From Malus domestica (Eukaryota; Streptophyta; Magnoliopsida; Rosales; Rosaceae): DNA of 64,000 nucleotides. Below the pieces are notes generated by a model that saw only the letters and a list, made by a program, of their open reading frames with translations, did not search any database and was not told the origin of the DNA. The stretch spans positions 21,410,501 through 21,474,500 of the forward strand of contig NC_091666.1 in assembly GCF_042453785.1 (NCBI RefSeq), read 5' to 3'. The position numbers and the translations under genes were made by a program. Shown piece after piece: positions 4,364 to 59,772 of the stretch. Positions within the stretch are counted from its first letter, which is position 1; every line of letters starts with the position of its first letter.

Positions 4364-5089
4364 TATCTCCGAATTCTTCTCTGGTATCATTGTTTTCCTT
4401 GTATAATTGTAAATCCTAATTGTACTTATTATATGATTCTTGCCATAATAAGTTAGAAAACAAGACAAATGAATGGGCATAGCAACGCTCATTGTATTTG
4501 TAGAACCTTGTTGAATCAATGCTATGTTTTAAGTGGCCTCTTTAGAAGTTCCCTTAATATCAAAGATACAAAAAGTAAGAGGTTTTTAGTTTTAAATTGA
4601 AATTGTAATCGTACTTCATAATTAAAGTCTTAGTCGATCGGAAATTGTTTGGTAAAAATCACGGGCGGAGCTAATGCACGCCTAGTGTGTGCAGGCTGTG
4701 CAGATGCGCTCACTTGGAAAAATAGTGCAGGCTTTGTCCGATTAATTTGGAGTGGCAAATTATAGAACCCGAGCGTAGTAAAACCTCCACTTAGAAAAGC
4801 AGTTGAGGCTTTGTCCCAATTGTAATTTCATAATTTAACCATATTTAGTTGATTTTTTTACGCTCCATATGAGTAATTAAAATTTTGGCTCTGTTAGTGA
4901 TAAAAATCAGCCTTAGTAAAACAAATGACAACATCAAGTGATTCAAAAACCAAAAGCAGCATTATAAACAACGTATGTATGTAGGAAATATAAAGATCAA
5001 TGAATTAAACAAGCCAATAACTAGTCTTGATCACTGGCAAAGATGTAGAGTACTAGTACTAACTCTAATGCCAATTAGCTACTCTGTTT
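4364..5089. other. 3' flank of LEA1, type-1 spacer
   Basis: Non-coding spacer shared with the flanks of LEA4 (17240-17465 plus 21363-21787) and LEA5 (26258-26438 plus 31383-31901). In those two copies it is interrupted by a hAT and a copia element respectively, so this copy shows both empty sites. No gene was seen. Confidence 0.75.
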
Positions 5090-17160: not shown

Positions 17161-17950
17161 GCTTTAATTTAAAAATTCACAATAAACAATACAAAGAATC
17201 ATAATTCAACAAGATGATTTTCGACTGAAATAGAGAAATCAAGACGAATAAATGGGCTTAGCAACACTCTTTGTATTTATAGAACCTTGTTGAATCAATG
17301 CTATATGTTTGAAGTGGCCTCTTTAAAAGTTCCCTAAATATTACAGATATAGAAGGTTCGAAGATTCTTTTTTATTGAATTTGTAATCGTACTTCATAAT
17401 TAAAGTCTAAGTCGATCGGAAACTATTTGGTAAAATCACGGGCGGAGCTAATGCATGCCTACATTTAGGTCTGGCAAATGGGTCGTATATGTCGTTTTCA
17501 TGTTGTTTTCGTGTAACACATGTTATCTTAACGAGTCGTGTCGTGTCACATCCGTTATCTTAACGGGTCCTTAACAGGTCGGGTCAAATGGGTAAAGTGA
17601 CCCGACCCATTATGACCTATTATGACCCGTTAAGAATTTTTTTTTTTTCTTCTTAAATTTGCACATACCACACATTGCCACATAAATATTACTTCAAAAC
17701 ATTAAAACATATTTGTCCTTTAAATGCTACATCTACACTCGAAAATAAGAGCCTAATTAACAAACATTCATACACTAACATCCATACACTACTAGTCTAT
17801 TACAAAATATTAAATGTGCAAGGATATGCAAAATGAAAGAGTTTTTGTTTTCAAGGTTGTGAAGCATTTCTCAAAAGTTTAAACCTTATCAATGGAACTC
17901 AAAGCTTGCATGTTATTCCTTTTACAAAATCCTCAATTTTCATCAATCAT

Positions 17951-20900
17951 CATGACATAAGATTTTGTGGTATCCACTAGTGTAAATATTTTAAATTGAA
18001 GATCAAATTCATTCATGGTATTCATATAGCGTCAAGGAGTGTAGCTGTAAACAATCATCAAAATCAGAGTTAAAATAACTGTTAAATTGTGATTTTTAGT
18101 TGACAACCATGGAAAAGTTTTGTTTCGTTACTTGATCTTTGAATGTTTGTTTTTTGCAATTTTTGGCTTACGATATCTTGAAGTATATACAAATAAGTTT
18201 GACGGTTGGATCGTTGAAATTAGTTTCGCCGAATGCATATTCCATCAAAACGATATATTCACTAACATTTAGAGTTTATTTATACTTTCATTAAGTATAA
18301 CTAGTGTAAATATTTTAAATTGAAGAATGAATTCATTCATTGTATTCATATAGGGTCAAGGAGTATAGCTGTAAAAAAATCATCAAAATCAGAGTTAAAA
18401 TAACCGTTAAATCATGATATTTTGTTGATAACCGTCGAAAAGTTTTGTCCCGTTACTTGATCTCTGAATGTTTATTTTTTTGCACTTTTTGGCTTATGCG
18501 ATCTTGAAGTATATACAAACATGTTTGACGGTTAGATCGTTGAAACTAGTTTCGTAAAATGTGTATCTCATCAAAACAATAGATTCACTAACACTGAAGA
18601 GTTTATTCATACTTTCATTAAGTATAGTATAAGATTTTGTAGTATCAACAAATGTAAATATTTTAAATTGAAGATCGAGTTCATTCATTGTATTCATATA
18701 GGGTCAAGGAGTAGCTGTAAAAAAATCAGTAAAATCGGAGTTAAAATAACCGTTAAATCGTGATTTTTTGTTTATAACCGTAAAAAAGTTTTGTCCTGTT
18801 ACTTGATCTCTGAATGTTTGTTTTCTACAATTTTTGGCGTATGCGATCTCAAAGTATATACAAACATGTTTGACGGTTGGATCGTTGAAAATAGTTTTGT
18901 AGAATGCGTATCCATCAAAACAATAGATTCATTAACACTTAAGAGTTTATTCATACTTTCACGAAGTATAAATAAGATTTTGTGGTATCCACTACTGTAA
19001 ATATTTTAAATTGAAGATCGAGTTCATTCATTGTATTCGTATAGGGTCAAGGAGTGTAACTGTAAAAAAACATCAAAATCGAAGTTAAAATAACCGTCAA
19101 ATCATGATTTTTCGTTGATAACCGTCGACAAGTTTTGTCCCATTACTTGATCTCTGAATACTTGTTTTTTGCGATTTTTTGCGTATGAAATCTTGAAGCA
19201 TACACAACCAAGTTTTACGGTTGGATGATTGAAATTACTTTCGTAGAATGCGTATCTCATCAAAACGATAGATTCACTAACAATTAGAGTTTATTTATAC
19301 TTTCATTAAGTATAACATAAGATTTTGTGGTATTCACTATTATCAATATTTTAAATTGAAGATTAAATTCATTCATTGTATTCATATAGGGTTAAGAAGT
19401 GTAGCTGTAAAAAATTATCAAAATCAGAGTTAAAATAACTGTTAAATCGTGATTTTTTGTTGATAACCGTCGAAAAGTTTTGTTCCGTTACTTGATCTCT
19501 GAATGTTTTTTTTTTTTTTTTTGCAATTTTTGGCTTATGCAATCTCGAAGTATATACAAACACATTTGACGATTAGATTGTTGAAACTAGTTTCGAAAAA
19601 TGTGTATCCCATCAAAACAATAGATTCACTAATACTTAAGAGTTTATTCATACTTTCATTAAGTTTAACATAAGATTTTGTGGTATCCACTAGTGTAAAT
19701 ATTTTAAATTGAAGATCGAGTTCATTCATTGCATTCATATAGGGTCAATGAGTGTAGCTGTAAAAAATCATCAAAATCAGAGTTAAAATAACCGTTAATT
19801 GTGATTTTTCGTTTATAACCGTCGAAACGTTTTGTCCCGTTACTCGATCTCTGTATGTTTGTTTTACACAATTTTTGGCGTATGGGATCTTGAAGTATAT
19901 ACAAACATGTTTAACTGTTGGATCGTTGAAACTAGTTTCATAGAATGCGTATCCCATCAAAACAATAAATTTACTAACACTTAAAAGTTTATTCATACTT
20001 TCATCAAGTATAACATAAAATTTGGTGGTATCCACGAGTGTAAATGTCTTAAATTGAAGATCGGGTTCATTCATTGTATTCGTATAGGGTCAAAGAGTGT
20101 AGCTATAAAAAATCATCAAAATCGAAGTTAAAATAACAGTTAAATCATGATTTTTCCTTGATAAGCGTTGAAATATTTTGTTCCTTTACTTGATCTCTGA
20201 ATGTTTTTTTTTTGTGATTTTTGGCGTATGCGATCTTGAAGCATACACAAACAAGTTTGACGGTTGGATCGTTGAAATTAGTTTCGTAGAATGCGTAACC
20301 CATCAAAACGATAGATTCACTAACATTTAGAGTTTATTTATACTTTCATTAAGTATAACATAAGATTTTGTGGTATCCACTAGTGTCAATATTTTAAATT
20401 GAAGATCAAATTCATTCATTGTATTCATATAGGGTCAAGGAGTATAGCTGTAAAAAATCGTCAAAATTGGAGTTAAAATAACCGTTAAATCGTGATTTTT
20501 CGTTTATAATCGTAAAAAAGTTTTGTCCCAGTACTTGATCTCTGAATGTTTATTTTTTGCAATTTTTGGCATATGCGATGTCAAAGTACATACAAACATG
20601 TTTGAAGGTTGGATCGTTGAAACTAGTTTCGTAGAATGCGTATCCCATCAAAACAATAGATTCACTAACACTTAAAAGTTTATTCATACTTTCATTAAGT
20701 ATAACTAGTGTAAATATTTTAAATTGAAGATCGAGTTAATTCATTGTATTCATATAGGGTCAAGAAGTATAGCTGTAAAAAATCATCAAAATTGGAGTGA
20801 AAATATCCGTTACATTGTGATTTTTCGTTGATAACCGTCGAAAAATTTTGTTCCGTTGATCTCTGAATATTTGTTTTTTTACGATTTTTTGCTGATGCTA

Positions 20901-20970
20901 TCTTGAAGTATATACAAACAAGTTTGACGGTTAGATCGTTAAAATTAGTTTCGTAGAATTCGTATCTCAT
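17951..20970. repeat. About 9 tandem copies of a 345-bp repeat inside the hAT element
   Basis: The landmark CTTGATCTCTGAATG recurs at about 18131, 18456, 18802, 19146, 19491, 19842, 20189, 20534 and 20856 (some variants). Spacings are 322-351 bp, mostly 344-347. Each unit also has AGTTTATTCATACTTTCATT and GATTTTGTGGTATCCAC blocks. Units diverge by scattered changes and small indels. On the minus strand most units leave short, similar ORFs of 60-109 codons; 345 is a multiple of three. Confidence 0.92.
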
Positions 20971-21116
20971 AAAGTTCAATGTGGTATGTGTGTGTATATA
21001 TATACATATATTTATTAAGTAGATTTAAATTTATTTATTTTGTACATATAACACTTAAGAATTGAATGGTATGTATATTTAAGCCGATCCAATGGTCACC
21101 AATTTTTAATATTTAA

Positions 21117-21120
<4 letters not shown>

Positions 21121-21157
<37 letters not shown>
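21121..21157. repeat. (TA)n microsatellite
   Basis: Alternating TA run in the right part of the hAT element. Confidence 0.9.
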
Positions 21158-21159
<2 letters not shown>

Positions 21160-21362
21160 GTATAGTTTTGAGCGGTATAAAATTGTTAAATTAATATATA
21201 TAATTATTATAGTATTTTTTAGGGTTATAACCCACGTGTATACCCAAACCAACATGTTATCTTAATAAGTGCTTATCAGGTTACCCGATAACAACCCGAT
21301 TCGTTATCGTGTTGACCCGAACACCTGTTAATTTCGTGTCATGTCGTGTCGTGCCAGGTCTA

Positions 21363-21548
21363 CCTACATTGCCTAGTGCGGGCAGCTGCACTCACTTGGA
21401 AAAATAGTGCAACCTTTGTCCCATTATTTGGAGTGGCAAATTGAAAATTATACCTGTTAGCGTAGTAAAACCTCCACTTAGAAAAGTAGAGCAGGATTTG
21501 TCCCAATTGTAATTTTATAATTTAACTATATTTTGGTGGTCTTCTTAT

Positions 21549-26438: not shown

Positions 26439-26819
26439 TGTTAATGTGTAAATTGATGAATTGATTTAAGTAAATTACAAATATGTTTAGTGATGTCTCT
26501 TAGCTCATAGGCTAAGATTTAGTGATTCATTTTAAATATGCTAGTTGAGTCTCATAGGACTTGGTAGTATACAAATGTCTTAAGCTTAGTGGAGTATGAA
26601 TTGGATGGCTGAGATTGAATTGAGGATATGTCTCTTTCTCTCTCTCCTCTAACGATTATTACATTAAAAAGTGTGTAAGCTCACAACCTGTGTGCATATT
26701 CCCTAAAAATATGGAAAACTTTCAAAGAGTACTCTCACTCTGAGTTTTAAGGAAGAAACATTCTTATTCTTCTTCTTTCTTCAATAAAACCGCTGTATTC
26801 TTCTTTATTCTCTCTAACA
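26439..26819 (+). repeat. 5' LTR of the copia element
   Basis: TGTTAATGTG to CTCTCTAACA, 381 bp. Compared by eye with the 3' LTR, roughly 20 substitutions plus small indels are visible, about 5% divergence. Confidence 0.95.
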
Positions 26820-26836
26820 TGGCCTCAGAGCCAGGT
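26820..26836 (+). promoter_or_regulatory. Primer binding site
   Basis: TGGCCTCAGAGCCAGG immediately follows the 5' LTR and resembles the initiator tRNA-Met complement TGGTATCAGAGC with changes. Confidence 0.6.
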
Positions 26837-26939
26837 TGAGTCTGAACTTCTGGGCGTCGTGTTTGTGAAAGGGTGAGCTCAGATTCATAGCAAAAGCTCA
26901 TTACAGTGATTCAAGTTCATATCAGTGATCGAGTCTAAC

Positions 26940-29900
26940 ATGGTTGGATCTGGAGGAAGAGAACTCAAAGCGCCAGTCTTTAATGGCGAGAATTTTGATT
27001 TCTGGCAAATCAAAATGAAGACCATTTTCCGATCACACGAACTGTGGGATCTAGTTAAAAATGGGTATGAAACTCCGGCGAAGAAGGAGGAGGAGCTCAC
27101 GGAGGCAGAGAAGAAGCTGATGCGTGAGAATATGGTCAAGTATGCTAGAGCACTTGTAATCATCCAAGGTGCCGTCTCAGATCAAATTTTTCCAAGAATC
27201 GCAACCCAGAATAGTGCAAAGGCTGTGTGGGACATCCTGAAACAAGAATTTGTGGGTGATAAACAAGTAAGATCTGTGAAACTCCAAGGTCTTATAAGGG
27301 ATTTTGAATACACTTACATGAATGATAATGAATCTCTCTCTGTGTATATTGCTAAACTGTTTGACCTGATCAACCAAATGAAAAGCTATGGTGAAGATCT
27401 GAGTAATCAAAGAATTGTTCAGAAGTTGTTAATCAGTCTACCTAAGTCTTATGATAGTATTGCAGCTGTGATAGAAAATACTAAGGACTTAGACACCATA
27501 GATGCACAGAATGTTGTTGATATCTTAAAAGGTTAAGAACAAAGGCTTGATAGACATGGGGAGAGTAGTATGGAGAAAGCATTTACTAGTTTGAATATTG
27601 CACCAAAGCCAAATAGGTTTAATGGTCAGCCAAACAGTAGTAAATACCAGAAAAATTTTAAGCAAAGAGGAAAACAGTGGAGTAACAAGGCTGATTGGGG
27701 CAATAAGGCTAGTTTCCTTGTGAAGAATGATACCAATAACACTGGGGAGGAGTGTAAATTCTGTGATAGACTTCACTATGGAGAGTGTTGGGTTAAGAAC
27801 AAGGTCAAATGTCACAAGTGTAGCAAAATTGGTCATATTGCAAGATACTACAATATAAACAAGGTTGTGCAACAGGTGAATTTTGCTAATTAGATAGAGG
27901 AAACTGGAAACCTATTTTATGCTAACCATTCTAGAGAAATGAAGAAAATTAGTGATGAATAGTACATAGATAGTGGATGTAGTAATCATATGACATCCAG
28001 GGAAGATTTACTTGTTGACATTGACAGACATGTGAAAGCCAAGGTCCAAGTAGGCACTGGAAACTTAGTTAAAGTGACTGGAAATGGGACACTGATTATT
28101 GAAACAATGAAGGGCAGAAGATATATAAGAGAAGTAATGCTTGTACCTGGTCTTACAGAGAATTTGCTCAGTGTAGGAAAAATGACAAAGCATGGTTACT
28201 TTCTTCTGTTTGGAGATTATAAGGTAAATGTGTTCGATGATAAATCTCTAAGAAATCTAGTGGTCAGTGTAAAATAGAAGGGAAACAGATGCTTTCCTCT
28301 AAATCTCAGTACCAACAAAGAACTTGCATTGAGAGTAAATGTGCAAGATGATGCAAAGTTATGGCATAAGCAGTTTGGGCATCTGAATTTTAGGAGTCTC
28401 AAGCGGTTGCAGAGTCAAGGAATGGAATTGGGGCTGCCTGAAATCCAAGACAGTGATGATGTATGTCAAGGCTGTGTATTTGGAAAGCATCACAGAGAGT
28501 CATTCCCTAAGGAGACCACATGGAGAGCACATGAACTATTGGAACTGATTCATTCTGATGTGTGTGCACCTATGCAGGTTCCAACCACAATTGGAAACAG
28601 ATATTTCCTCACAATCATTGATGACTATTCAAGAATGTGTTAGATCTATTTTATGAGCAATAAATCAGAAGTGTTTGGAATATTTAAAAAGTTTAAAGCT
28701 ATGGTTGAATTGCAAAGTGGTTATTCACTGAAGAAACTGAGAAGTGATAGGGGTGGAGAGTTTAATTCCACTGAGTTCAATGCATTCTGTGAGTTAATTG
28801 GGATGGAAAGACAACTCATTCTGTCATATACTCCACAGCAAAACGGAGTGGCAGAAAGGAAGAATAGGACAGTAGTGGAAATGGCTAAAAGTATGCTGTA
28901 TGAGAAAGGACTACCATTTGAAGCTTATTAAACAGATGTCCTACAAGTGGATTGGATAGTGTCACACCATTTGAAGCTTACAGTGGAAGAAGACCTGGGA
29001 TCAAACATCTCAAAGTATTTGGTGCTGTGTGTTATTCTCTTATACCTGGAGATTTAAGACACAAGCTGGAAGCATCAAGTGTCAAAGGAATCTTTATTGG
29101 ATATGGAGCTTGTGATAAGGGATATAGAATTCTAAATCCATCTACCATGAAAGTGATCATATCCCGAGATGTAGTGTTTGATGAGAATGGAAAGTGGAAT
29201 TGGGAAGAAAATAAAGTGAAAGAGATATGTGTTCCTTTAATTTCATCTGATTTTAGAAAAATAGATGATATTGAAGTTGGAGAGTCCTCTCAGTCATCAT
29301 CTTCCATTTCTTGTGAAAGATTAAGTGCTCATGATGTATGTGCACAAACTCATTTTGTGGATACAGAAACTTTTGACTCAACTCCTTTGAAATGGAGAAA
29401 CCTGAGTGAGATATATGAACATTGCAATCTGTACATTGTTGAACCTGAAAATTTTGAAGATGCTGCAAAGGATGAAGCTTGGAAAGTTGCTATGCAAGAT
29501 GAAATTGATATGACAGAGAAGAATCAGACCTGGAACTTGGTGAATAGACCAACTGACAAACCTGTAATTGGAGTAAAGTGGGTATACAAGACCAAACTGA
29601 ATCTAGATGGATCTGTGCAGAAAAACAAAGCAAGGTTGGTGGCTAAAGGATATGCACAGAAGCCTAATGTGGATTATAACGAGACATTTGCACATGTTGC
29701 AAGGTTGGACACTATACAAACATTGATTGCTCTAGCTGCAAAGAACAATTGGCAGTTATTTCAATTAGATGTTAAGTCTGCCTTCTTGAATGGTGTTCTT
29801 CAGGAGGAAGTGTATGTGGATCAGCCAGATGGATTTATTGTAGAAAGGGAAGAGAACAAAGTGTACAAGTTGAACAAGGCTCTTTATGGACTGAAACAAG

Positions 29901-31009
29901 CACCAAGGGCTTGGTACAGTGAAATTGATGCTTATTTTGAAGACTGTGGGTTCAAAAAGAGTGATAGTGAAGCAATTTTGTATACAAAAGGAGATAAGGA
30001 TAAAGGAATACTCATTGTGTCAATTTATGTTGATGATATTATTTATACTGGCAGTAGCATTGAAATGATACAAGAATTCAAGGCTAATATGATGCATAAG
30101 TATGAAATGACAGATTTGGGTTTGCTACATCATTTTCTTGGAATGGGAGTTATGCAAACTGAAAGTAGTATTTTCATTCATCAAAAGAAGTATGCTACTT
30201 CTTTACTTGAGAAGTTTGGGTTACAGGATTGTAAATCTGTTAGTATTCCACTTGTTCCAGGTGATAAACTGAGAAAGAATGATGATAGTGGAGCAGTTGA
30301 TGTAGCATAGTTCAGAAAAATTGTTGGCAGCTTGTTGTATCTCACTGCAACTAGACCAGATATCACGTATGCCTCTTGCTTACTAGCAAGATTTATGCAT
30401 TGCTCAACTAATAAGCACTATGGAACTGCAAAAAGAGTGATGCGATACATACAAAGAACCTTAGACTATGGTTTGGAGTATAAGAAAGGTCAAGGAGTAA
30501 TGTTGTTTGGATTCTATGACAGTGACTGGAGTGGATCAGAGGAGGATATGCGAAGTACTTCAGGGTATGCATTCTCTTTTGGAAGTGGGGTATTTTCTTG
30601 GTCCTCAGTCAAGCAACACTGTGTTGCATTATCCACTGCAGAAGCAGAGTACATCAGTGCAGCAGAAGCTACTGCACAGGCAACTTGGTTGAGCTTTGTG
30701 TTGGAAGATTTTGGTGAAACACAGACTGTGGCAACTCCGTTGAAATGTGATAGCACCTCTGCTATTGCAATTACTAAGAATCCCATTTTCCACCAGAAAA
30801 CCAAGCACATCAATCGAAGGTATCATTTTATCAAGGAGGCTCTGCAGAATGAAATCATTGATTTCGTGTACTGTCCAACCAAAGATCAAGTTGAAGATAT
30901 ATTCACAAAGGCACTGGCCAAGGAGCAGTTTTGTTATCTCAGAGAGAAATTGGGAGTAAGATCAGTTCACAATTTAGAGGGAGTGTTAATGTGTAAATTG
31001 ATGAATTGA
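26940..31009 (+). pseudogene. Copia gag-pol polyprotein, disrupted
   Basis: Gag occupies about 26940-27893, ending in zinc-knuckle-like sequence near 27810 whose last Cys is replaced by Tyr. The protease signature YIDSGCSNHM is at about 27963. GAG-pre-integrase (LWHKQFGHLNF) is near 28360, and the integrase core with DDYSR and the TPQQNGVAERKNR motif follows at about 28540-28900. Reverse transcriptase follows, with FQLDVKSAFLNG at about 29760 and YVDDI at about 30028. RNase H contains KTKHINRRYHFIKE at about 30800. In-frame stops are at 27534, 27891, 27960, 28275, 28641 and 30308, and a frame change with apparent small deletion at about 28929-28951. Several stops are TAG where Trp is usual. 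No restored reading is given. Confidence 0.93.
30971..30983 (+). promoter_or_regulatory. Polypurine tract
   Basis: TTTAGAGGGAG lies directly before the 3' LTR. Confidence 0.65.
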
Positions 31010-31377
31010 TTTAAGTAAATTACAAATATGTTTAGTGATGTGTCTTAGCTCATAGGCTAAGATTCAGTGATTCATTTTAAATATGTTAGTTGAGTCTCAT
31101 AGGACTTGGTAGTATACAAATGTCTTAAGCTTAGTGGAGTATGAATTGGTTGGTTGAGATTGAATTGAGGATCTGTCTCTTTCTCTCTCTCCTCCAACGA
31201 TTATTACATTAAAAAGTGTGTGAGCTCACAATCTGTGTGAGAAGCATATTCCTTGAAAAAATGGAGAACTTTCAGAGAGCACTCTCGCACTGAGTTTCAA
31301 GGAAGAAACATTCTTCTTCTTCTTCTCTTCTTCTTTCTTCAATAAAACAGCTGTATTCTTCTTTATTCTCTCTAACA
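30984..31377 (+). repeat. 3' LTR of the copia element
   Basis: TGTTAATGTG to CTCTCTAACA, 394 bp. The 13-bp length difference comes from small indels near AGAAGCATATT and a TTCTTC run. Confidence 0.95.
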
Positions 31378-31382
31378 TCTTT

Positions 31383-31901
31383 AGAAGTTTCCTTAATAAT
31401 AACGATATAAAAAGTTCGAAGTTTTTTTTTTTATTTTTTTATTTTTTTTTATTAATTGAAATTGTAATCGGAAATTGTTTGGTAAAAATCACGGGCGGAG
31501 CTAATGCATGCCTAGTATGTGCAGGCTGTGCAGCTGCGCTCACTTGGAAAAATAATGCAGGCTTTGTTCGATTAATTTTGGAGTGGCAAATTATAGAACC
31601 TGAGCGTAGTAAAACCTCCACTTAGAAAAGTAGTGGAGGCTTTGTCCCAATTTGTAATTTCATAATTTAACTATATTTATGAGTAATTAAAATTTTGGCT
31701 CTGTTACTGATAAAATTCAGCCTTAGTAAAACAAATGGCAACTTCAAGTGATTCAAAAACCAAAAGTAGCATTATGAACAACAAATATACGTATAGGAAA
31801 TATAAAGATCAACGAATTAAAAAATCCAATAACTACTCATGATCACTCCCAAAGATGTAGAGTACTAGTACTAACTCTAATGCCAAGTAGCTAATCTGTT
31901 T
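31383..31901. other. 3' flank of LEA5, type-1 spacer
   Basis: Continues the spacer interrupted by the copia element; collinear with 4540-5089. No gene. Confidence 0.75.
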
Positions 31902-33040: not shown

Positions 33041-35225
33041 TGACACGCCCCGATCCCGATATTTCCCCGAATACTAGGATAGGCACGTGCTGGCCGACAC
33101 CCGAGGGTGACGAAAGCCATTTATTAAGTGCAAATGCTGAAAACAACGGATATATAAGACTTATAAATATAAAAGAATAAAGAATATGCATTTAAGGAAC
33201 GTGTTCAGAGCATACAACTAACTAGAACATCGAAAGAAATAATATAAATTGGAGTGAACAAAAGAATGGATCCTACACCGAAAGGACTCGAAGATGCTGA
33301 AGCGGAAGTGCCTGGATGTCAGGATTGTACGCCTCGATTCTAAGTCCTGAAGGGGGCGCAAAACAAACATGAGTGGACCAAGTTGATATATATATAGTAA
33401 AACAGTTATCAACGTACTAACCCCCAGGTTTTATGAAAACACATATATAATGATAAACATAGGTTTTCCAAAACCTAGCATGCCGTGCAATATCTCAAAT
33501 CATAACTTGTATATATAATAATCACTAGTGAATTGTCCGATAACCCCCAGGCCCCATGCCGACTCCCCGTCTCTGAGCAGACAATCAGAGGAAAATACAC
33601 TTCAGGCCCCATGCCGGCTCCCCATCCCTGTGCTAAATAGCCAAAGGAAACATACTCCAGGCCCTATGCCAACACCAAACCGTCGCCCGGGACGGACCGG
33701 AATCTATCCCTACGTCCCGTAGCGGAAAGGACCACTAGGTAAGTACAAAACCACTGAACATATTTATATTGAAAAACAACTTCGTAGTATAAAGTCATCC
33801 ATCATCTATACTACAAAGAGGTGTTCTAAACATGTTCTAAATATCATATCGTCATCCATCGGATATTCTATAAGGACATGGGTTATAGGAAAAATAGTAA
33901 TAATTCAATCTAGCCTCAGTAAGCATACTATCTCATAAAGTACTTCATAAAACATAAGTATTAAATCATGCTTTTCATGTATGCATTTCTATTAATAAAA
34001 CATGCATTTTTAGAAGGGGTCCACTCACCGTACACCGATGATGCAAAGCTGTACCAAAAAGGTATAGCGGAATCACCGTTAATAATTTCACCTATTCACA
34101 TAAAGGAGTACCTTTGGTCAAACTCTATTCAAACTAAGTCAACAGTCAACTGGTCAGAGGTCAAAGTCAATTGGGCTTTGAATTGGGTTGGGCTGAAAAG
34201 GGCCTTAAAGGTTTTGAGGAAAAGGGCTTTCAGCCCCTTAACAGAAAATGGCCCAAAGGGCCCTAAATTCCTAAAACAGAAAATAAAATAAATAAAAACC
34301 TTAAAAGGTTTTTGGGTTGGGTCATGGGCCACATGCCCTAAACATAAACGGCCCGAGGGCCTTTGGGTCCTAAAACAATAACAATTAAATTAAATTAAAA
34401 AAAATAATTAAAAGGATATGGGTTAGGATTTGGGCTTCCCCACCACACGGGCCTAAGGCCCTCTTGCTACAGGAACCGGCCTGGAAGGCCTGGCCTCACC
34501 GGAGCACCACCACCGGAGCTTCACAGCTCCGGCCGACTTCCACACACAACCCTAGACTTCGATCTAGGTACCAAAACGAAGAGCAAGACGAGGGGAGAAT
34601 TTCTATACCTTCCTTTCGTCGTGGAACGACCGGAGATGGCCGGAATAACCCCCGAGGTCGCCGGAGTTGGGTGTGCTTACACCCGGCTTCGATTTCGTCC
34701 TATAACCTCCAAAAATCACGAATTAACTCCAATTAAACCTCAATCTCGCAAGAATCAAGGACGAAAAGAGAGAATTAGGGGCTTACCTAACCGGAGATTG
34801 AAAAATCTCGCCGGAGCTCCTTTTCCGGTTCTCTGGGGTCGCGGGAACGAGAGGGAGAGAGAGAGAGAGCAGGACGCGGTGATGAAGGGTGATGGGCTTC
34901 CTCGCGTGGGGAGATGGGTGCGTGCGTGTGTGCGCGGTGCAGAGAAGAGGGAGAGAAGTGAGAGATGAGAGAGAGCCGAGAGGGAGAGACATGAAGAAAG
35001 AAAAGAAAAACAAAAAAAAGAAGAAGAAAGAAGGGAGTTCACGGGGGGGAAAGAGAGAAGAAAGAGAAATTAGTTGGGGGGCTGCCACGTGGCAGATTTA
35101 GAAAGAAAAGGGATCCAATGCTTTGGATCCTGATTTGGTAGACAAAAAAGATGAAATTGATATATTTAAAACATTTAGGGGTAATTAAAAACATAAATCT
35201 TTATAATTAGGGGGCAGGTGTTACA
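33041..35225 (-). repeat. 3' LTR of the LARD-like element (minus orientation)
   Basis: 2185 bp. It is almost identical to the other LTR but lacks a 157-bp block present there at about 39463-39619. It contains (GA)n and purine-rich runs at about 34850-35070. Confidence 0.93.
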
Positions 35226-35245
35226 ATCTTCCCCCCTTATAAAAA
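35226..35245 (-). promoter_or_regulatory. Polypurine tract of the LARD-like element
   Basis: The minus strand reads TTATAAGGGGGGAAGAT right before the LTR start TGTAACACC. Confidence 0.8.
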
Positions 35246-35302
35246 TTTCGTCCCCGAAATTTAAAATTACTACTAAACTGAAATACTCTAAAATAGTAAG
35301 AA

Positions 35303-35348
<46 letters not shown>

Positions 35349-38300
35349 AGAAATCTAGTGAGAGTGGGTGCATCAAAGAGAATATGTCACACCGTCGCGA
35401 GCGGGTTGCAAAATCCTCTATCATGCCTCCAAACTCTTACTTTCATCCCCATCAGTGTAAAAATAGAAAACATACTTTAATAAGATATAAGGTCAAAAAC
35501 ATATATTGACGTAAGGTCAAAAATAAGTACATAAAATACGATAACGTCAAAATAGAGATATACTAACATATAGGTCGAAAACTCGAGCTGAACTTAAAAT
35601 TGAAAATGGAAAACACTTTCCTCTAAACATTTGTAACAACAAAAACAAATAACTAAAGTAAAGGAAGTTAAAATACTTATACTGAAAACCAAAACTGAAA
35701 ATGGAAATGGGTCTCGCCCAAGAATTCGTAACTTCACATACTCCGAGAAAAGATGTCTTTGGGTCGAGCCCCAAGAATATCAATTCTTAATCTGCATCAG
35801 CTGCTGTAGACGAATCTTCTTGTCCACTTGCTTAACGAACCCAACGAATAAGTTATCGATACAACAGTCGGCCGCCCGTGATATCGATCATATATTTGTT
35901 GTCTCGATAAGCAAGCAGTAATTTCCTGATGGTGCACAATTTCACATGTCGTAAATTCGATCCTCCGAATACAAGCTCGCACAACTCCTCTAACAACCAA
36001 TGTTGCATGTAGCAACTTTCGTACCATGCCGCAACAAGTGCCATACTCAAACCGAACAAAATACGAACTGTCGTCGTAAAACTTTATCCAGCACCAAGCA
36101 TCCTATCCTCCTCAGTTCTTCCAAATGTGACCAACTACTCCAGAGTATCACTAGTAAAGAACCCATTTGAAAATTGTACCTTGGGATTCAAGAGAAGTGG
36201 CTACCATGTTAGTAATAGACCCAAAAGCTCGAACCAAGCAAGCAGAAAACGAGAAGTCATCTTCCTCAACACGCAGTATCTCTTGGGAGTTGTTCTAATG
36301 CCCAATCCACTTCTCCATTTTTGCTTAGTTGCAGACTTCTAGTCAAACAAAGTCAAAGTTGGAGGAAAGAAGAAGGACTCTCAAGTGATCAACGTAAAAA
36401 CCCCATAAGAGCACACCCCATTCAATAGAAGTTTAAAGATCTTCCGATTCTCACCTCAACAGCACTGTGGTGACATTCCAGAGTGCACCAAACAGATCTG
36501 CTATAAGTGTTTCGACAACCACGTATTCATAACAATAAGGTTCAGAAGTGAAGCAGTGGAAATATACGTTGAGACGAACACATATCATCATAAAAAAGGT
36601 CTACCAGAGTAAGATATGATAGTTATGAATGGTAGCAACATAATGAGTGGTGACCATTCAATTCAGCATGAAGATAGTGATGCAATATGCTATTCATCTG
36701 CACCACAACCTTTCACCAGTATCTTACCAAAAGACGACTCAAACTTCACATCCTCGAGGAACTCTTTCTGGTAAGTCTGGTAAGCTTGTCAAAATATTAT
36801 GCTCCCAACATTCCTGCCCAAATCGATGAAAATTGAGCGCACACTTCCGCCAAATCGATCAATCGTGAATTCCTCATTGATTGAGCGAGAAACCATGTCG
36901 AGAAGGCTAAAAGAACACTCAAGAATTTGAGAGTCAAAACAAGTTTATTAAAACTGGAGCACAAGATATTGCGATTTGAACGAGAAACCATGCCGAGAAC
37001 AAACGTTTTTTTTTTTTTACACCCTCCGTATAATATCCCGGCATGATCTGGTTCACATTGAGAAACAAACAAGTGAAGGAAAATGAAGATGCAGAAATAG
37101 AAGTCACTGTTTATGATTATTTGGCTAATCATCACCATAAGGTTGACGGGTTTCTTAGCCAAAAGGGAAACAGGTCTAAGCTCAAAGAATAGTTAACAAC
37201 TGCTTATAAGATTTGACGAGGCCAAAGACATTTCGAGATTCACAATACTTTGTGAGAGCTGTTTCAAAGTTCATAAATTAAACATAGAACCTTCGAATCA
37301 ACAGAATGACGAAGAAGAAAGATACAAAGCAGCCTGCGTACGCATGCAGTGACACGATTGGCTACCTTAAAGTGATGCCCGTGAGCAAACCAAAGCTCAA
37401 TGAGTCTAGAGAATTTTATAGCAAAGCTCGATCTTCATACAATGATGAATATGGTAGAGTATCAAGCCATTACGCTGAAAATTACAAGGTTAAACAGTTA
37501 GTGGACAAGAGCACTAGTCAGTTGGGCCACAAGCAAGAGGCTAAGTTCACCTTTACGTAAAAGTGCGTGGACAAGGAGTTAGGGTTTACCGCCGAGTACC
37601 AGACCCCGGTGAAATTCAAGGAGTCTAATTATCCAAACAAGACTGGATCTTCATCATCCAAGTCCAACTACCATAACAACAAGAATTGTAACTCCATTTA
37701 GGGAAATTGATGGGAATAGCATCTGCTACCGAGGAGTTTCCCAAGAAAAGTAATTAATGCGAACGAAGTCAACACTCAAAGAATTTGGTATGAAACTGAC
37801 GGTCAAAGGTTAATGAACTTGATTTCGTCATTGGAATAAGCAAGAAGGTTATCAATAGAACAATCGACAAAGATTCATTCTAAAGATTCACACGAATGTC
37901 CTCAATGGAAACGAGTCTGAGAACATTGATTTTCTCCCAAGATTTCGATGCAAAGTCGACTCCGCCCGCAATTCCTAAGGAACGCATGTTGCAGAGTGGC
38001 ATCGCCATTTCGAATTTACAACTAGTCTTGACCAGACTTCCTCAAACTGAGATTTCTAAAACACGTCGCTTCCAAGTAACACCGACTATGCCCGTCATTC
38101 CCAAGGAATGCACGTCGTAGAGTATCAATCTGAAGCTGAAAGTCGTCCAACAAATCAAACACGTCACCGATGAGGCACAATCCCGACACGAATTTTCTTA
38201 TATTTCAACCGGAATGTGACAATTCAAACAGAGAAAAGCTCGCACAACTGTGCCGAATGACATCAAATCTAGAAGTCCTGACATCCAAATGATGTCAAAA

Positions 38301-38353
38301 CCGACACACTACTTTAGTAAGAGAATATCCTAAGTATGCTCTGAACAAACCAC

Positions 38354-38365
38354 GCTCTGATACCA
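38354..38365 (-). promoter_or_regulatory. Primer binding site of the LARD-like element
   Basis: The minus strand reads TGGTATCAGAGC, the standard initiator tRNA-Met PBS of plant LTR elements, three bases inside the LTR boundary. Confidence 0.9.
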
Positions 38366-38368
38366 ATC

Positions 38369-40712
38369 TGACACGCCCCGATCCCGATATTTCCCCGAAT
38401 ACTAGGATAGGCACGTGCTGGCCGACACCCGAGGGTGACGAAAGCCATTTATTAAGTGCAAATGCTGAAAACAACGGATATATAAGACTTATAAATATAA
38501 AAGAATAAAGAATATGCATTTAAGGAACGTGTTCAGAGCATACAACTAACTAGAACATCGAAAGAAATAATATAAATTGGAGTGAACAAAAGAATGGATC
38601 CTACACCGAAAGGACTCGAAGATGCTGAAGCGGAAGTGCCTGGATGTCAGGATTGTACGCCTCGATTCTAAGTCCTGAAGGGGGCGCAAAACAAACATGA
38701 GTGGACCAAGTTGATATATATATAGTAAAACAGTTATCAACGTACTAACCCCCAGGTTTTATGAAAACACATATATAATGATAAACATAGGTTTTCCAAA
38801 ACCTAGCATGCCGTGCAATATCTCAAATCATAACTTGTATATATAATAATCACTAGTGAATTGTCCGATAACCCCCAGGCCCCATGCCGACTCCCCGTCT
38901 CTGAGCAGACAATCAGAGGAAAATACACTTCAGGCCCCATGCCGGCTCCCCATCCCTGTGCTAAATAGCCAAAGGAAACATACTCCAGGCCCTATGCCAA
39001 CACCAAACCGTCGCCCGGGACGGACCGGAATCTATCCCTACGTCCCGTAGCGGAAAGGACCACTAGGTAAGTACAAAACCACTGAACATATTTATATTGA
39101 AAAACAACTTCGTAGTATAAAGTCATCCATCATCTATACTACAAAGAGGTGTTCTAAACATGTTCTAAATATCATATCGTCATCCATCGGATATTCTATA
39201 AGGACATGGGTTATAGGAAAAATAGTAATAATTCAATCTAGCCTCAGTAAGCATACTATCTCATAAAGTACTTCATAAAACATAAGTATTAAATCATGCT
39301 TTTCATGTATGCATTTCTATTAATAAAACATGCATTTTTAGAAGGGGTCCACTCACCGTACACCGATGATGCAAAGCTGTACCAAAAAGGTATAGCGGAA
39401 TCACCGTTAATAATTTCACCTATTCACATAAAGGAGTACCTTTGGTCAAACTCTATTCAAACGATTGAATTTGGGAAAACGGACTTCAAAAACGAGTCCA
39501 GGACGTCGAAATTAGCCTAGGAGAGGTCCTGGACGAAACCTCGAAAAGTCAACTCAAAAAGTCAACGTTGATCGTTGACCGATCAAAGTCAAAGTCAACT
39601 CTGACCGTTGACCGTTGACTAAGTCAACAGTCAACTGGTCAGAGGTCAAAGTCAATTGGGCTTTGAATTGGGTTGGGCTGAAAAGGGCCTTAAAGGTTTT
39701 GAGGAAAAGGGCTTTCAGCCCCTTAACAGAAAATGGCCCAAAGGGCCCTAAATTCCTAAAACAGAAAATAAAATAAATAAAAACCTTAAAAGGTTTTTGG
39801 GTTGGGTCATGGGCCACAGGCCCTAAACATAAACGGCCCGAGGGCCTTTGGGTCCTAAAACAATAACAATTAAATTAAATTAAAAAAAATAATTAAAAGG
39901 ATATGGGTTAGGATTTGGGCTTCCCCACCACACGGGCCTAAGGCCCTCTTGCTACAGGAACCGGCCTGGAAGGCCTGGCCTCACCGGAGCACCACCACCG
40001 AAGCTTCACAGCTCCGGCCGACTTCCACACACAACCCTAGACTTCGATCTAGGTACCAAAACAAAGAGCAAGACGAAGGGAGAATTTCTATACCTTCCTT
40101 TCGTCGTGGAACGACCGGAGATGGCCGGAATAACCCCCGAGGTCGCTGGAGTTGGGTGTGCTTACACCCGGCTTCGATTTCGTCCTATAACCTCCAAAAA
40201 TCACGAATTAACTCCAATTAAACCTCAATCTCGCAAGAATCAAGGACGAAAAGAGAGAATTAGGGGCTTACCTAACCGGAGATTGAAAAATCTCGCCGGA
40301 GCTCCTTTTCCGGTTCTCTGGGGTCGCGGGAACGAGAGGGAGAGAGAGAGAGAGAGCAGGACGCGGTGATGAAGGGTGATGGGCTTCCTCGCGTGGGGAG
40401 ATGGGTGCGTGCGTGTGTGCGCGGTGCAGAGAAGAGGGAGAGAAGTGAGAGATGAGAGAGAGCCGAGAGGGAGAGACATGAAGAAAGAAAAGAAAAACAA
40501 AAAAAAGAAGAAGAAAGAAGGGAGTTCACGGGGGGGAAAGAGAGAAGAAAGAGAAATTAGTTGGGGGGCTGCCACGTGGCAGATTTAGAAAGAAAAGGGA
40601 TCCAATGCTTTGGATCCTGATTTGGTAGACAAAAAAGATGAAATTGATATATTTAAAACATTTAGGGGTAATTAAAAACATAAATCTTTATAATTAGGGG
40701 GCGGGTGTTACA
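38369..40712 (-). repeat. 5' LTR of the LARD-like element (minus orientation)
   Basis: 2344 bp, including a 157-bp block with repeated GTTGACC/GTCAAC motifs that is deleted from the other LTR. Confidence 0.93.
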
Positions 40713-56064: not shown

Positions 56065-56208
56065 AATGCATGCAGTGGCGGAGCCAGAAATCTTACCACA
56101 AGGGGTCTTAGTGTAAAAGTCCAAATAAAAATTTAGGATGGAAAAACATAATGAAAATGAAATCATAGTACTTTCATTCATAATTCATAACGGAAACAAT
56201 ATTACAAG

Positions 56209-58563
56209 CTATAATTGTCCACGACGAGGTTTCATATTTTGAAAACGAAGCATTATAGCTTCATTTTCAATACAAGCAAAAATATCTCTCTCAATATAAA
56301 CAAGCAAGCTATCACTCAACCATTGATCTCCCATTTTGTTCCTAAGTGGACCCTTAACAATATTCATGACAGAAAATGCTCTCTCCACTGAAGCAATTGC
56401 AACTGGTAAAACTAAAGACAATGTAATGAGCAAATATACATAATTGAATACTTGATGCATCCTTATCTCCACCAATTTTTTTGCAAGATCACCAATCCCT
56501 TCCAATTGAGAGAAATCACTACTGAAACGCACATAATGAATATAAATCTCAAGTTGATCTTCAAGTGCCAAATGATCCTCATCCGAAAAGTCTTGAGGAT
56601 AAAATTGAGCAAGACGAAGTAACTTTGGTTTATCAAAGGCTACAAATGAATCTTTCGGACTCAAACATGCCAAACAAATAAGCAACTCAGTATTTACCTC
56701 ATTAAAGCGATCCTCTAACTCCGTAATTTGCTCATCAATGACATAAATGAAGAGCTCCACACGATAATGATGACGATTCGTCTTTATTGGAGCATTACGC
56801 CTTGACCTCCCTGGAAGTATAAATGCCTCTTCCATGTTAGGAACATCAATATGATGTTTTTCACAAAAAGAAGATACTTCATCAACCAATGCATCGAACC
56901 CATTATTCCTCATCCAATGTAGCTTTTCCCTGCATGATTTCATTAAAGCCATTGCATTCACAATTTCTTGATCCTTCATTTGCAATGTTTGTGACAAATC
57001 ATTTGTGAGTCCCAATATGACTTTCATCAAGAAAAGGTGAAACACAAACTCAAAAGTACGTATGTCTCTCATTAACTTATTTGCTTCACCCGCACTTTCA
57101 TTGGGATTATCATCAATAACCATTTGAAGCACATGAACCACGGATGAAAACATGGAAATGATGCTAATCAAGGTACCATAGTGTGAATTCCATCGTGTGT
57201 CACTGACACGTTTGAGACTTGGTTCTTGATTTAAGCCTCGCCCCGTTATAAGACAATCGTTTTCAAAAGCTATCACAAGCTCTTCTTGAAGTTGTTGTCG
57301 AAGTAAATCACGCCGCTTACAAGATGCTCCAACATAATTAACCATACTATTAGCCGTTACAAAAAAAGAGGCAATGTCTATATTCTTCTTTGCTACAGCA
57401 ACAAGAGCTAGTTAAAGTTGATGTGCAAAGCAATGAACATAATATGCACAAGGTTGTTCTCTTAATATCTTTGTTTTAAGGCCATTCAACTCACCTCCCA
57501 TATTGCTAGCACCATCATAACCTTGTCCTCGTAGCTTGGAAATGCTCAAACCATTGCGAGAAAAGAATGTGTCAATAGCATCCTTTAGTGAACTTGAAGT
57601 AGTGTCGGTAACATGTTGGATACCCACAAATCTTTCAATTACATGCCCGTTGTCATCCACATAACGCAACACCATAGCCATTTGCTCTTTCACCGACACA
57701 TCACGTGCTTCATCCACCAATATTGAAAAGAATCTATCTTTTAGACCATCCATGATAGCATCAAGTGTTTCAAGGGCACATGAATTCACAATTTCTTTTT
57801 GAATGGAAGGAGTTAGTAATTTGAGATTCCCCGGAGCATTTTCCATCACAACTTCTCTAACTTTATCATCATTATCTGCAAGGAATTTCAATAGCTCCAA
57901 GTAATTTCCCTTATTGCTTGAAGTGGCACTTTCATCATGGCCACGAAAAGCAAGACCTAATAAAAACTTAGTGCACTTGATTGATGCATTCAAGCATGTG
58001 CGATAAGCCTTACGAGCTTGGTCGGAGTGTTTGCTCACTGCCGTTTCAATATGTGTAGCTTGATTCATCAAATTTGTAGCAGCTTCTCTAACCTTATTAT
58101 GAACACTCCCAACCGTTCCAACATGCATCTTAAATCTTTCTCTCCTTTTCTTCCAAGTCTTAAATCCATCTCTAGTGAAAGCTTCACTACCCATTTGTTC
58201 AAAATTGGTTTTAAAGAGATAGCAATAGAGACAAAATGCCGCATCTTTAGATATACTATACTCCAACCAATCAAACTCATTAAACCATAGGGGAATGAAG
58301 TGTCGATTAATTCCGGACATATTAGTTATTGGGAAATTATGACCTCTAGGTTGACGAGGTCCTTTTTGTAGATATGATCTTCGGACCTCATCTCTCATAT
58401 TAGCATCATAATCTATCATTTGAATTCTTAATCCATGATCAGCTTGAAGATTACCCAAAACATCATCTAACTGACTTTGTCTTGAACTTGGAGTTCTTGA
58501 ACTACCAACAGTATTCGAACTACCCGAACCCGATGATGACTTTCTCTTAAAAAACCGTTCCAT
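56209..58563 (-). pseudogene. hAT transposase (TTF zinc finger / DUF4371 / dimerisation), one nonsense codon
   Basis: From ATG 58563 the frame runs 784 codons with a single in-frame TAA at 57412-57414. Residues of about 1-30 are Ser/Lys-rich. A TTF-type zinc-finger region with FDWLEYS and AFCLYCYLF lies at about 95-120. A DUF4371-like catalytic part with FSILVDEARDVS and YDGASNMGG follows to about residue 383. After the stop the frame continues and ends with a hAT dimerisation region (LPVAIASVERAFSVMN, then LVYIERD) at about 705-755. It resembles plant zinc finger MYM-type 1-like proteins. With only one stop and otherwise open frame, it appears recently disabled. Confidence 0.92.
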
Positions 58564-58564
58564 A

Positions 58565-59095
58565 ATAATTCTACATATACAAAATATTCAAAATAAATAC
58601 TCACAATATAAACAAACCATCAACATAATCAAAATAAATATGAATTGGATTTCAATTAAATTAAATATATTCTACATATACAAAATAATGAAAATAAAAA
58701 CTCACAATATACACAAACCATCAACATAATCAAAATAAATATAAATTGGATTTCAATTAAATTAAATATATTCTACATATACAAAAAAATGAAAATAAAA
58801 ACTCACAATATAAACAAATCATCAACATAATCAAAATAAATATGAATTGGATTTCAATTAAATTAAAGATATTCTACATATACAAAATAATGAAAATAAA
58901 AACTCACAATATAAACAAACCATCAATATAATCAAAATAAATATGAATTGAATTTCAATTAAATTAAATATATTCTACATATAGAAAATAATGAAAATAA
59001 AAACTCACAATGTAATCAAATCACCAATATAATCAAAATAAATATGAATTAGGTTTCAATTAAATTAAATATATCATACATTATACATAGGGTTT
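58565..59095. repeat. Five tandem copies of a 101-bp repeat in the hAT 5' region
   Basis: TCACAATATAAAC-type landmarks recur at 58601, 58702, 58803, 58904 and 59005, a constant 101-bp period. Each unit has CAATTAAATTAAATATATTC. The array lies just upstream of the transposase start. Confidence 0.93.
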
Positions 59096-59334
59096 AGAAC
59101 TTACTTGAATTGTGAAATTTCACAATAACAATGTCAATGAGCAAATATAAAGAGAGCTGGCGCGGCACCTCAATGGTGGCAGCAAGGGAGGAGATGGAGT
59201 TGAGGGTTTGGGGGGGGGGGGGATTGAGTTTGGACTTAGGGTTGGAGGAGGAGAAAACAAAAGAAAATTGGGGGTTTTGGAATGGGGGAGTCGGATCTGT
59301 GAAAAAAGAAGAGAGCTGCCTTTTTTTTTCTTTT

Positions 59335-59575
59335 TAGACCTGGCCCAAAATGACGTCGTTTTGGCCAGGTCATTTAAAAAAAAATTGACTGAGCCAAAAC
59401 GACGTCGTTTTAGCCAGGTCATTGAAAAAAAATTGCCTGGGCCAAAACGACATCGTTTTGGCCAGGTCATTTAAAAAAAATTGTCTGAGTCAAAACGACG
59501 TCGTTTTGGCAAGGTCATTTAAAAAAAATCCCTGAGCCAAAATGACGTCGTTTTGCCCAGGTTGTTTTAAAAAAA
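59335..59575. repeat. Five 48-bp repeats with palindrome AAAACGACGTCGTTTT
   Basis: GACGTCGTTTT (one GACATCG variant) occurs at 59352, 59401, 59449, 59497 and 59544, a period of 47-49 bp. Each unit joins TGGCCAGGTCATTTAAAAAA to the palindrome. They are subterminal in the hAT element. Confidence 0.92.
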
Positions 59576-59772
59576 AAGGCCCGCGCGGGCTCCTCTTTCT
59601 TCTTCAACCTGCAAGGCTGCCTTCTTTCTTTCAAACATTCCGTCGAACAAGTGGTGTGCAGCTCCAAGGGATCGAACCAGCAGCTCCAAGGGACCTCTAA
59701 GGTTATTTCCATGGCTTCCAAGGGGTCGTGCGACCCCATTGACCCCACTGTGGCTCCGCCTTTGAATGCATG

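Follow-up and report, generated by a model that had tools for sequence, protein, structure and literature searches.

Background

The Ac/Ds system of maize belongs to the hAT superfamily and has internal-deletion derivatives. The family described here resembles it in its 8-bp target site duplications (TSDs), short terminal inverted repeats (TIRs) and deletion derivatives that keep both ends, as well as in the PF14372 and PF05699 transposase of its coding relatives. It differs from Ac/Ds in a variable array of 345-bp units, which lies upstream of the transposase gene and is retained in the derivatives.

Transposons are already known as carriers of tandem arrays. Tnat1 and Tnat2 of Arabidopsis are transposable elements with central tandem repeats of 60 or 240 bp (PMC10794571); compared by description only, they are likewise plant elements with central tandem repeats and differ in unit length. 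Tetris, a foldback transposon of Drosophila virilis with no known transposase, is described in PMC4079207 as having internal tandem repeats of ~220 bp in variable number. These are located within its long TIRs and have expanded into arrays with as many as 66 copies. On that account the likeness is one of internal tandem repeats that vary in number within a transposon without known transposase, whereas the array of the present family is internal, occupies one side of the gene and has known coding relatives. CACTA and Helitron elements with arrays include ENSAT1, Jozin and DINEs, and ENSAT1 is said to derive from the 5' UTR of Atenspm (both from PMC9659126). These arrays are also transposon-borne but belong to superfamilies other than hAT; the word "hAT" occurs twice in that source, both times in its reference list. 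Passages on Rosaceae transposons in PMC11197308 make no mention of such a hAT array, and no hAT element with an array of this kind upstream of the transposase gene was found in the literature that we searched.

Results and discussion

The element and its insertion site

The window (the whole stretch of 64,000 nucleotides of Malus domestica DNA analysed here) contains the element whose features are listed in Table 1. Judged by its sequence, the element is one copy of a recently mobile plant hAT transposon family with 345-bp repeats.

Table 1. Positions of the element, its parts and its empty sites in the window
Feature	Position	Strand	Remarks
Whole element	17466..21362	+	3,897 bp; non-coding, probable deletion derivative of a hAT family
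TSD, left copy CCTACATT	17458..17465	.	
TSD, right copy CCTACATT	21363..21370	.	
Left TIR TAGGTCTGGCAA	17466..17477	+	
Right TIR TAGACCTGGCAC (minus-strand reading)	21351..21362	-	
Left segment	17466..17954	+	87.5% match to the L065 (coding copy) left end; in L065 the transposase gene follows with its 3' end
Tandem array, 345-bp units, nine unit starts	17955..20973 (about)	+	Left edge at the deletion junction of the window-copy class (~unit position 313), right edge at position 264 of the unit
Right segment	20974..21362	+	Corresponds to the coding copies' right end
Paralogous segment without the insertion (empty site)	4455..4860	+	82.9% to the joined flanks
Second paralogous segment without the insertion	31378..31678	+	79.4% to the joined flanks

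The original prediction of a hAT insertion with an 8-bp TSD is borne out by the direct repeat that flanks the insert and by two paralogous flanks without it. The two segments, which belong to a duplication of LEA genes in the window, align to the joined flanks in one piece with the insert absent; since ~15 bases at the insertion point have diverged in both, these empty sites show the absence of the insert, not the exact target. The ends had been described as matching. TIRs do exist, but in the window copy they are imperfect, the two ends sharing 9 of 12 positions and differing at three, and most other copies match better. The predicted lack of a transposase agrees with the absence from the window copy of the transposase domains PF14372 and PF05699 and of any stop-to-stop frame of at least 150 aa in the element.

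Two other identities were considered for the element. Helitrons are not known to have a TSD or TIRs, and the presence of both rules out that assignment. A foldback (Tetris-like) structure is ruled out by the lack of long end-to-end inverted repeats: of the 79 inverted pairs within the element, the 25 longest are AT-rich or unit-to-unit matches only, and none of them pairs one end with the other.

Seven or more open frames of a single LEA_2-like protein (one scanned frame falls just under the Pfam cut-off) lie within 5090-54429 in the segmental duplication, in which one 2.7 kb duplicated block is 99% identical. A Copia LTR element at 26439-31377 (RVT_2 domain, TSD TCTTT) sits ~90 bp into a paralogous copy of the segment struck by the hAT element, and an LTR element at 33041-40712 has long near-identical terminal repeats (1,094 bp at 100%; 1,095 bp at 99.3%) and the TSD TTGTG. 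The window also holds a second hAT-like element at 56073-59764, with TSD AATGCATG and ends CAGTGGCGGAGCC and CAAAGGCGGAGCC. A single stop interrupts its DUF4371 transposase frame, and tandem arrays of 101 bp x 5.2 and 48 bp x 4.8 adjoin the 5' side of its gene.

A family of elements with arrays

The genome (651 Mb in 19 contigs) was searched with the whole element, the unit, the left end and the right end, which gave 3,278, 2,678, 1,278 and 1,696 first-look candidates, respectively; 40 were scored per query, and copy number is known solely as these candidates. All 40 scored candidates of the whole-element search match. We studied 36 copies, namely 20 from the whole-element search, 13 found by the left end, two coding copies and the window copy; L001-L008 were excluded because their loci were already in the set.

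Perfect 8-bp TSDs, every one different, flank 23 of the 36 copies, four more have a TSD with one mismatch and one has two mismatches, while no TSD pair was found in the remaining eight (L010, L013, L014, L020, L024, L028, L043 and L065). Among the perfect TSDs, T is favoured at position 3 (16 copies) and A at position 7 (15 copies). Many copies carry the TIR TAGGCCTGGCAA at both ends. Each of the 36 joins the array to at least one family end and holds at least ~2.4 units, and over the arrays examined the number of units ranges from 2.4 to about 17. The 13 newly fetched left-end copies, from 40 scored, all carry array units. The repeat is therefore carried by other hAT elements. The original picture of an element stuffed with repeats holds insofar as the array is present; the array is, however, not foreign filling of one element but a regular constituent of the family, and in coding relatives it sits on the upstream side of the transposase gene.

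Coding relatives

The hAT dimerisation domain was used as a query (150 of 1,495 scored; none in 14 control genomes), and a match inside an array element at C15:37.5 Mb led to the coding copies L065 and L066. In both, the order is left end, last exon, intron, main exon, leader, 345-bp array and right end. The last exon is a 118-aa frame with PF05699 and the main exon contains PF14372 (E 3.6e-33 and 2.9e-26, respectively, in L065); a BED zinc finger was not reported by Pfam in the L065 main exon at 0.001. The gene reads from right to left, on the antisense strand of the element in its drawn orientation, which places the array on its upstream side. The distance from array to first ATG is about 320 bp in L065 and about 1.96 kb in L066, where an insert makes the leader ~1.3 kb longer. 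The leader ends with a pyrimidine tract and AG directly before the ATG; this end resembles a splice acceptor, which from sequence is suggestive only.

The main exons of the two copies are 99.7% identical. L066 has a perfect TSD, TGTAGGTA, and a stop within the main exon frame, while the main exon of L065 is open and its left tip is lost, so that neither copy seems fully capable of moving on its own. At seven more candidate coding loci one expected place was probed, and the array was found there in two: L067 has leader and array, L071 the array, L068 the leader only, and L069, L070, L072 and L073 have neither at that place. The window copy is ~87% identical to the coding left end, hence its direct parent is not among L065 and L066. 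In the coding copies, a 57-bp direct repeat (84%) lies on either side of the array, in the leader and in the right end (L065 3548-3604, reverse complement; window 21074-21130), and may be left over from the duplication with which the array started.

Because the coding relatives hold an antisense transposase gene and the same array between the same ends, the window copy reads as an internal-deletion derivative. In all likelihood it is non-autonomous and arose by internal deletion within a hAT family; in the coding relatives of that family, the array lies between the transposase gene, on its 5' side, and the right end.

Array borders and internal deletions

The right border of the array is nearly constant. 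Compared with a unit profile, 31 of the 36 arrays stop at position 264 or 265 of the unit (the others being L014, L028, L033, L043 and L044), and in all 20 fetched right ends, from 40 scored, the junction is at unit position 264. The left borders fall into classes, given here as position in L065 and position in the unit: 1016-1017 to ~304-315 (the window copy and eight others), 966-970 to ~282 (10 copies), 1216, in the last exon, to 298 (four copies), 1158 to 202 (eight copies), 1850, in the main exon, to 14 (one copy) and 1002 to 6 (one copy). L024 has no left end. These six distinct junctions have exact homology of 0-3 bp, and those of the 970 class carry filler-like bases. They look like independent internal deletions, although the neighbours 1002 and 1017 could share a history. 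Two of the classes keep pieces of transposase exons adjoining the array, and all six retain array units.

For 202 of 252 units, the nearest unit in another element belongs to the same deletion class, against a shuffle mean of 46 and a maximum of 95. The window class is the exception, with the nearest relative within the class for 19 of 54 units and in the 970 class for 32 of 54. Average-linkage clustering of the units gave no usable groups; principal components together with deletion classes grouped them better.

Mobility and change in unit number

Six young copies (L029-L032, L035 and L036) of 3,574-3,585 bp are 99.1-99.8% identical end to end and lie on chromosome contigs 2, 6, 10 and 11, with a different TSD in each. 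Between L031 and L032 there are one mismatch and six gap columns over 3,587. Corresponding units of L032 and L036 are 0-3 bases away from those of L031, compared with 10-29 bases between places within L031. The presence of near-identical copies on four chromosomes indicates that arrays move whole, and the proposal that the transposon mobilises the array is thus upheld, unit for unit.

The number of units also changes. L039, of the same class as the six young copies, has one extra unit that is a near-copy of no other unit, which fits unit loss in other copies of the class. Units 1-5 of L011 recur as units 6-10, 0.4% apart, and in L013 a three-unit block recurs, several copies being without difference. 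In the coding copies the array has about 12 units in L065 and about five, four of them full, in L066. The first nine full units of L065 are identical, and its units 10 and 11 resemble units 3 and 4 of L066 (1.5% and 0.3% apart). Taken with the 99.7% identity of the main exons, the nine identical units imply a very recent gain of single units beside the transposase leader. Unit number can thus change on the time scale of transposition, the coding copies differing by about seven units.

The array in the window copy

The expectation of about nine 345-bp units forming most of the element is confirmed by TRF (period 345, 7.8 copies, 84% matches, score 3717, 18300-20970) and by nine unit starts located with an anchor sequence (17985, 18309, 18657, 19000, 19345, 19698, 20043, 20388 and 20713); the last unit is cut short. 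Among the first 21 copies, the units of the window copy are the farthest from the family consensus (0.072). The array keeps a period-three pattern (lag-3 mean distance 0.113, P 0.015), and its units 1 and 8 are without the same 21 bp at the unit end (18276-18330, 20690-20720).

C and G sites in the array change ~5 times as fast as A and T sites. CpG observed/expected is 1.43 in the array (17955-20973) compared with 0.69 for the window, so there is no depletion. The fast change at C and G fits methylation decay, yet CpG stands above expectation and the explanation is incomplete. A known RNA family was rejected, the only two matches both lying far below the family gathering score. Exact-pattern searches of viral and prokaryote collections found no copies, as is expected of a plant repeat.

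Alternative explanations

The array might be what is left of a gene encoding a protein of 115-residue repeats, an idea for which the original prediction had left a little room while doubting present coding. The period is a multiple of three, only three stops interrupt one minus-strand frame of the consensus, and the longest open stretch in the window array, at 114 aa, is just above the 95th percentile of base shuffles (108). However, changes are spread evenly over codon positions, both in the nine window units (74/74/72, permutation P 0.99) and in 168 units from 21 copies (938/875/1073, P 0.55), which bears out the doubt and removes the room. In none of the six frames does the synonymous share depart from expectation by more than one standard deviation, as computed on a 346-base consensus whose frames slip one base per turn; unit lengths vary in steps not divisible by three, and no open frame in the young copy L029 exceeds 103 aa. 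On these tests, a repeat-protein gene is refuted for the copies examined, and we give it almost no credence. It is also improbable, though less extremely so, that the repeat is a genomic satellite in its own right, captured by the transposon or arisen from it. Units are numerous among the first-look candidates of the unit search, and arrays gain units in place. Against this, clusters in the unit search often end at unit position 264, which is the transposon's own junction, and every studied copy links its array to a family end. A 5.7-kb array query gave 2,043 candidates; among the 40 scored, the longest arrays reach about 5.3-5.9 kb, or 15-17 units, and no free long satellite was seen, bearing in mind that repeats collapsed in the assembly would escape such a search. 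The idea that the transposon seeds satellites consequently has no support so far.

A third alternative deserves more weight, although we still consider it unlikely: the array could be a functional cis module, with a role in the promoter or leader of the transposase gene (perhaps within a 5'-UTR intron) or as a set of extra contact sites for the transposase, with unit number tuning expression or mobility and selection keeping the array in derivatives. The retention of units in six of six deletion classes is in line with such a role, as are the position of the array upstream of the gene, the pyrimidine tract and AG just before the ATG, and the very recent change of unit number in a coding copy. 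Yet the array is the longest part between gene and right end, and chance breakpoints would often fall there; moreover, L033 and L044, with 2.4-2.9 units, have perfect TSDs. AAACGG is an Ac-type motif. It is not recurrent in the arrays, being absent from 14 of 15 copies and present once in the remaining one. A 20-bp stretch of the unit changes less than its base make-up predicts (P 0.03 at 15-20 bp), but the signal loses support at 30 bp (P 0.28); its raw counts looked ~six-fold below the mean, but the signal is marginal once base make-up is corrected for, and the stretch was set aside as a conserved 20-mer.

Origin and possible role of the array

The copies themselves document past mobility, the recent gain of units, the deletion junctions and where the array lies in coding copies, and the array is most simply a passenger. 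Under the preferred reading of the window copy as a deletion derivative, deletions that begin on the gene's 3' side and reach into the array would remove the transposase and leave shorter elements with both ends. Transposase made elsewhere, with the coding copies as its presumed source, could then move these derivatives, array included. Units may be gained or lost through template slippage in gap repair after excision, or through unequal exchange.

We can also speculate, with considerable doubt, that the array is a tunable control module, seated in the promoter or the leader of the transposase gene and perhaps in a leader intron. Slippage in post-excision repair would alter the number of units, which in turn would set transposase output or mobility, and derivatives would keep the array as an aid to movement. 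If this were true, the transposon would carry its own fast-changing dial. Coding relatives, near-identical young copies and several deletion derivatives occur together in a single genome, along with histories that can be read unit by unit, and in this system the movement, multiplication and retention of the array, and any role it may have upstream of the transposase, can be asked about directly.
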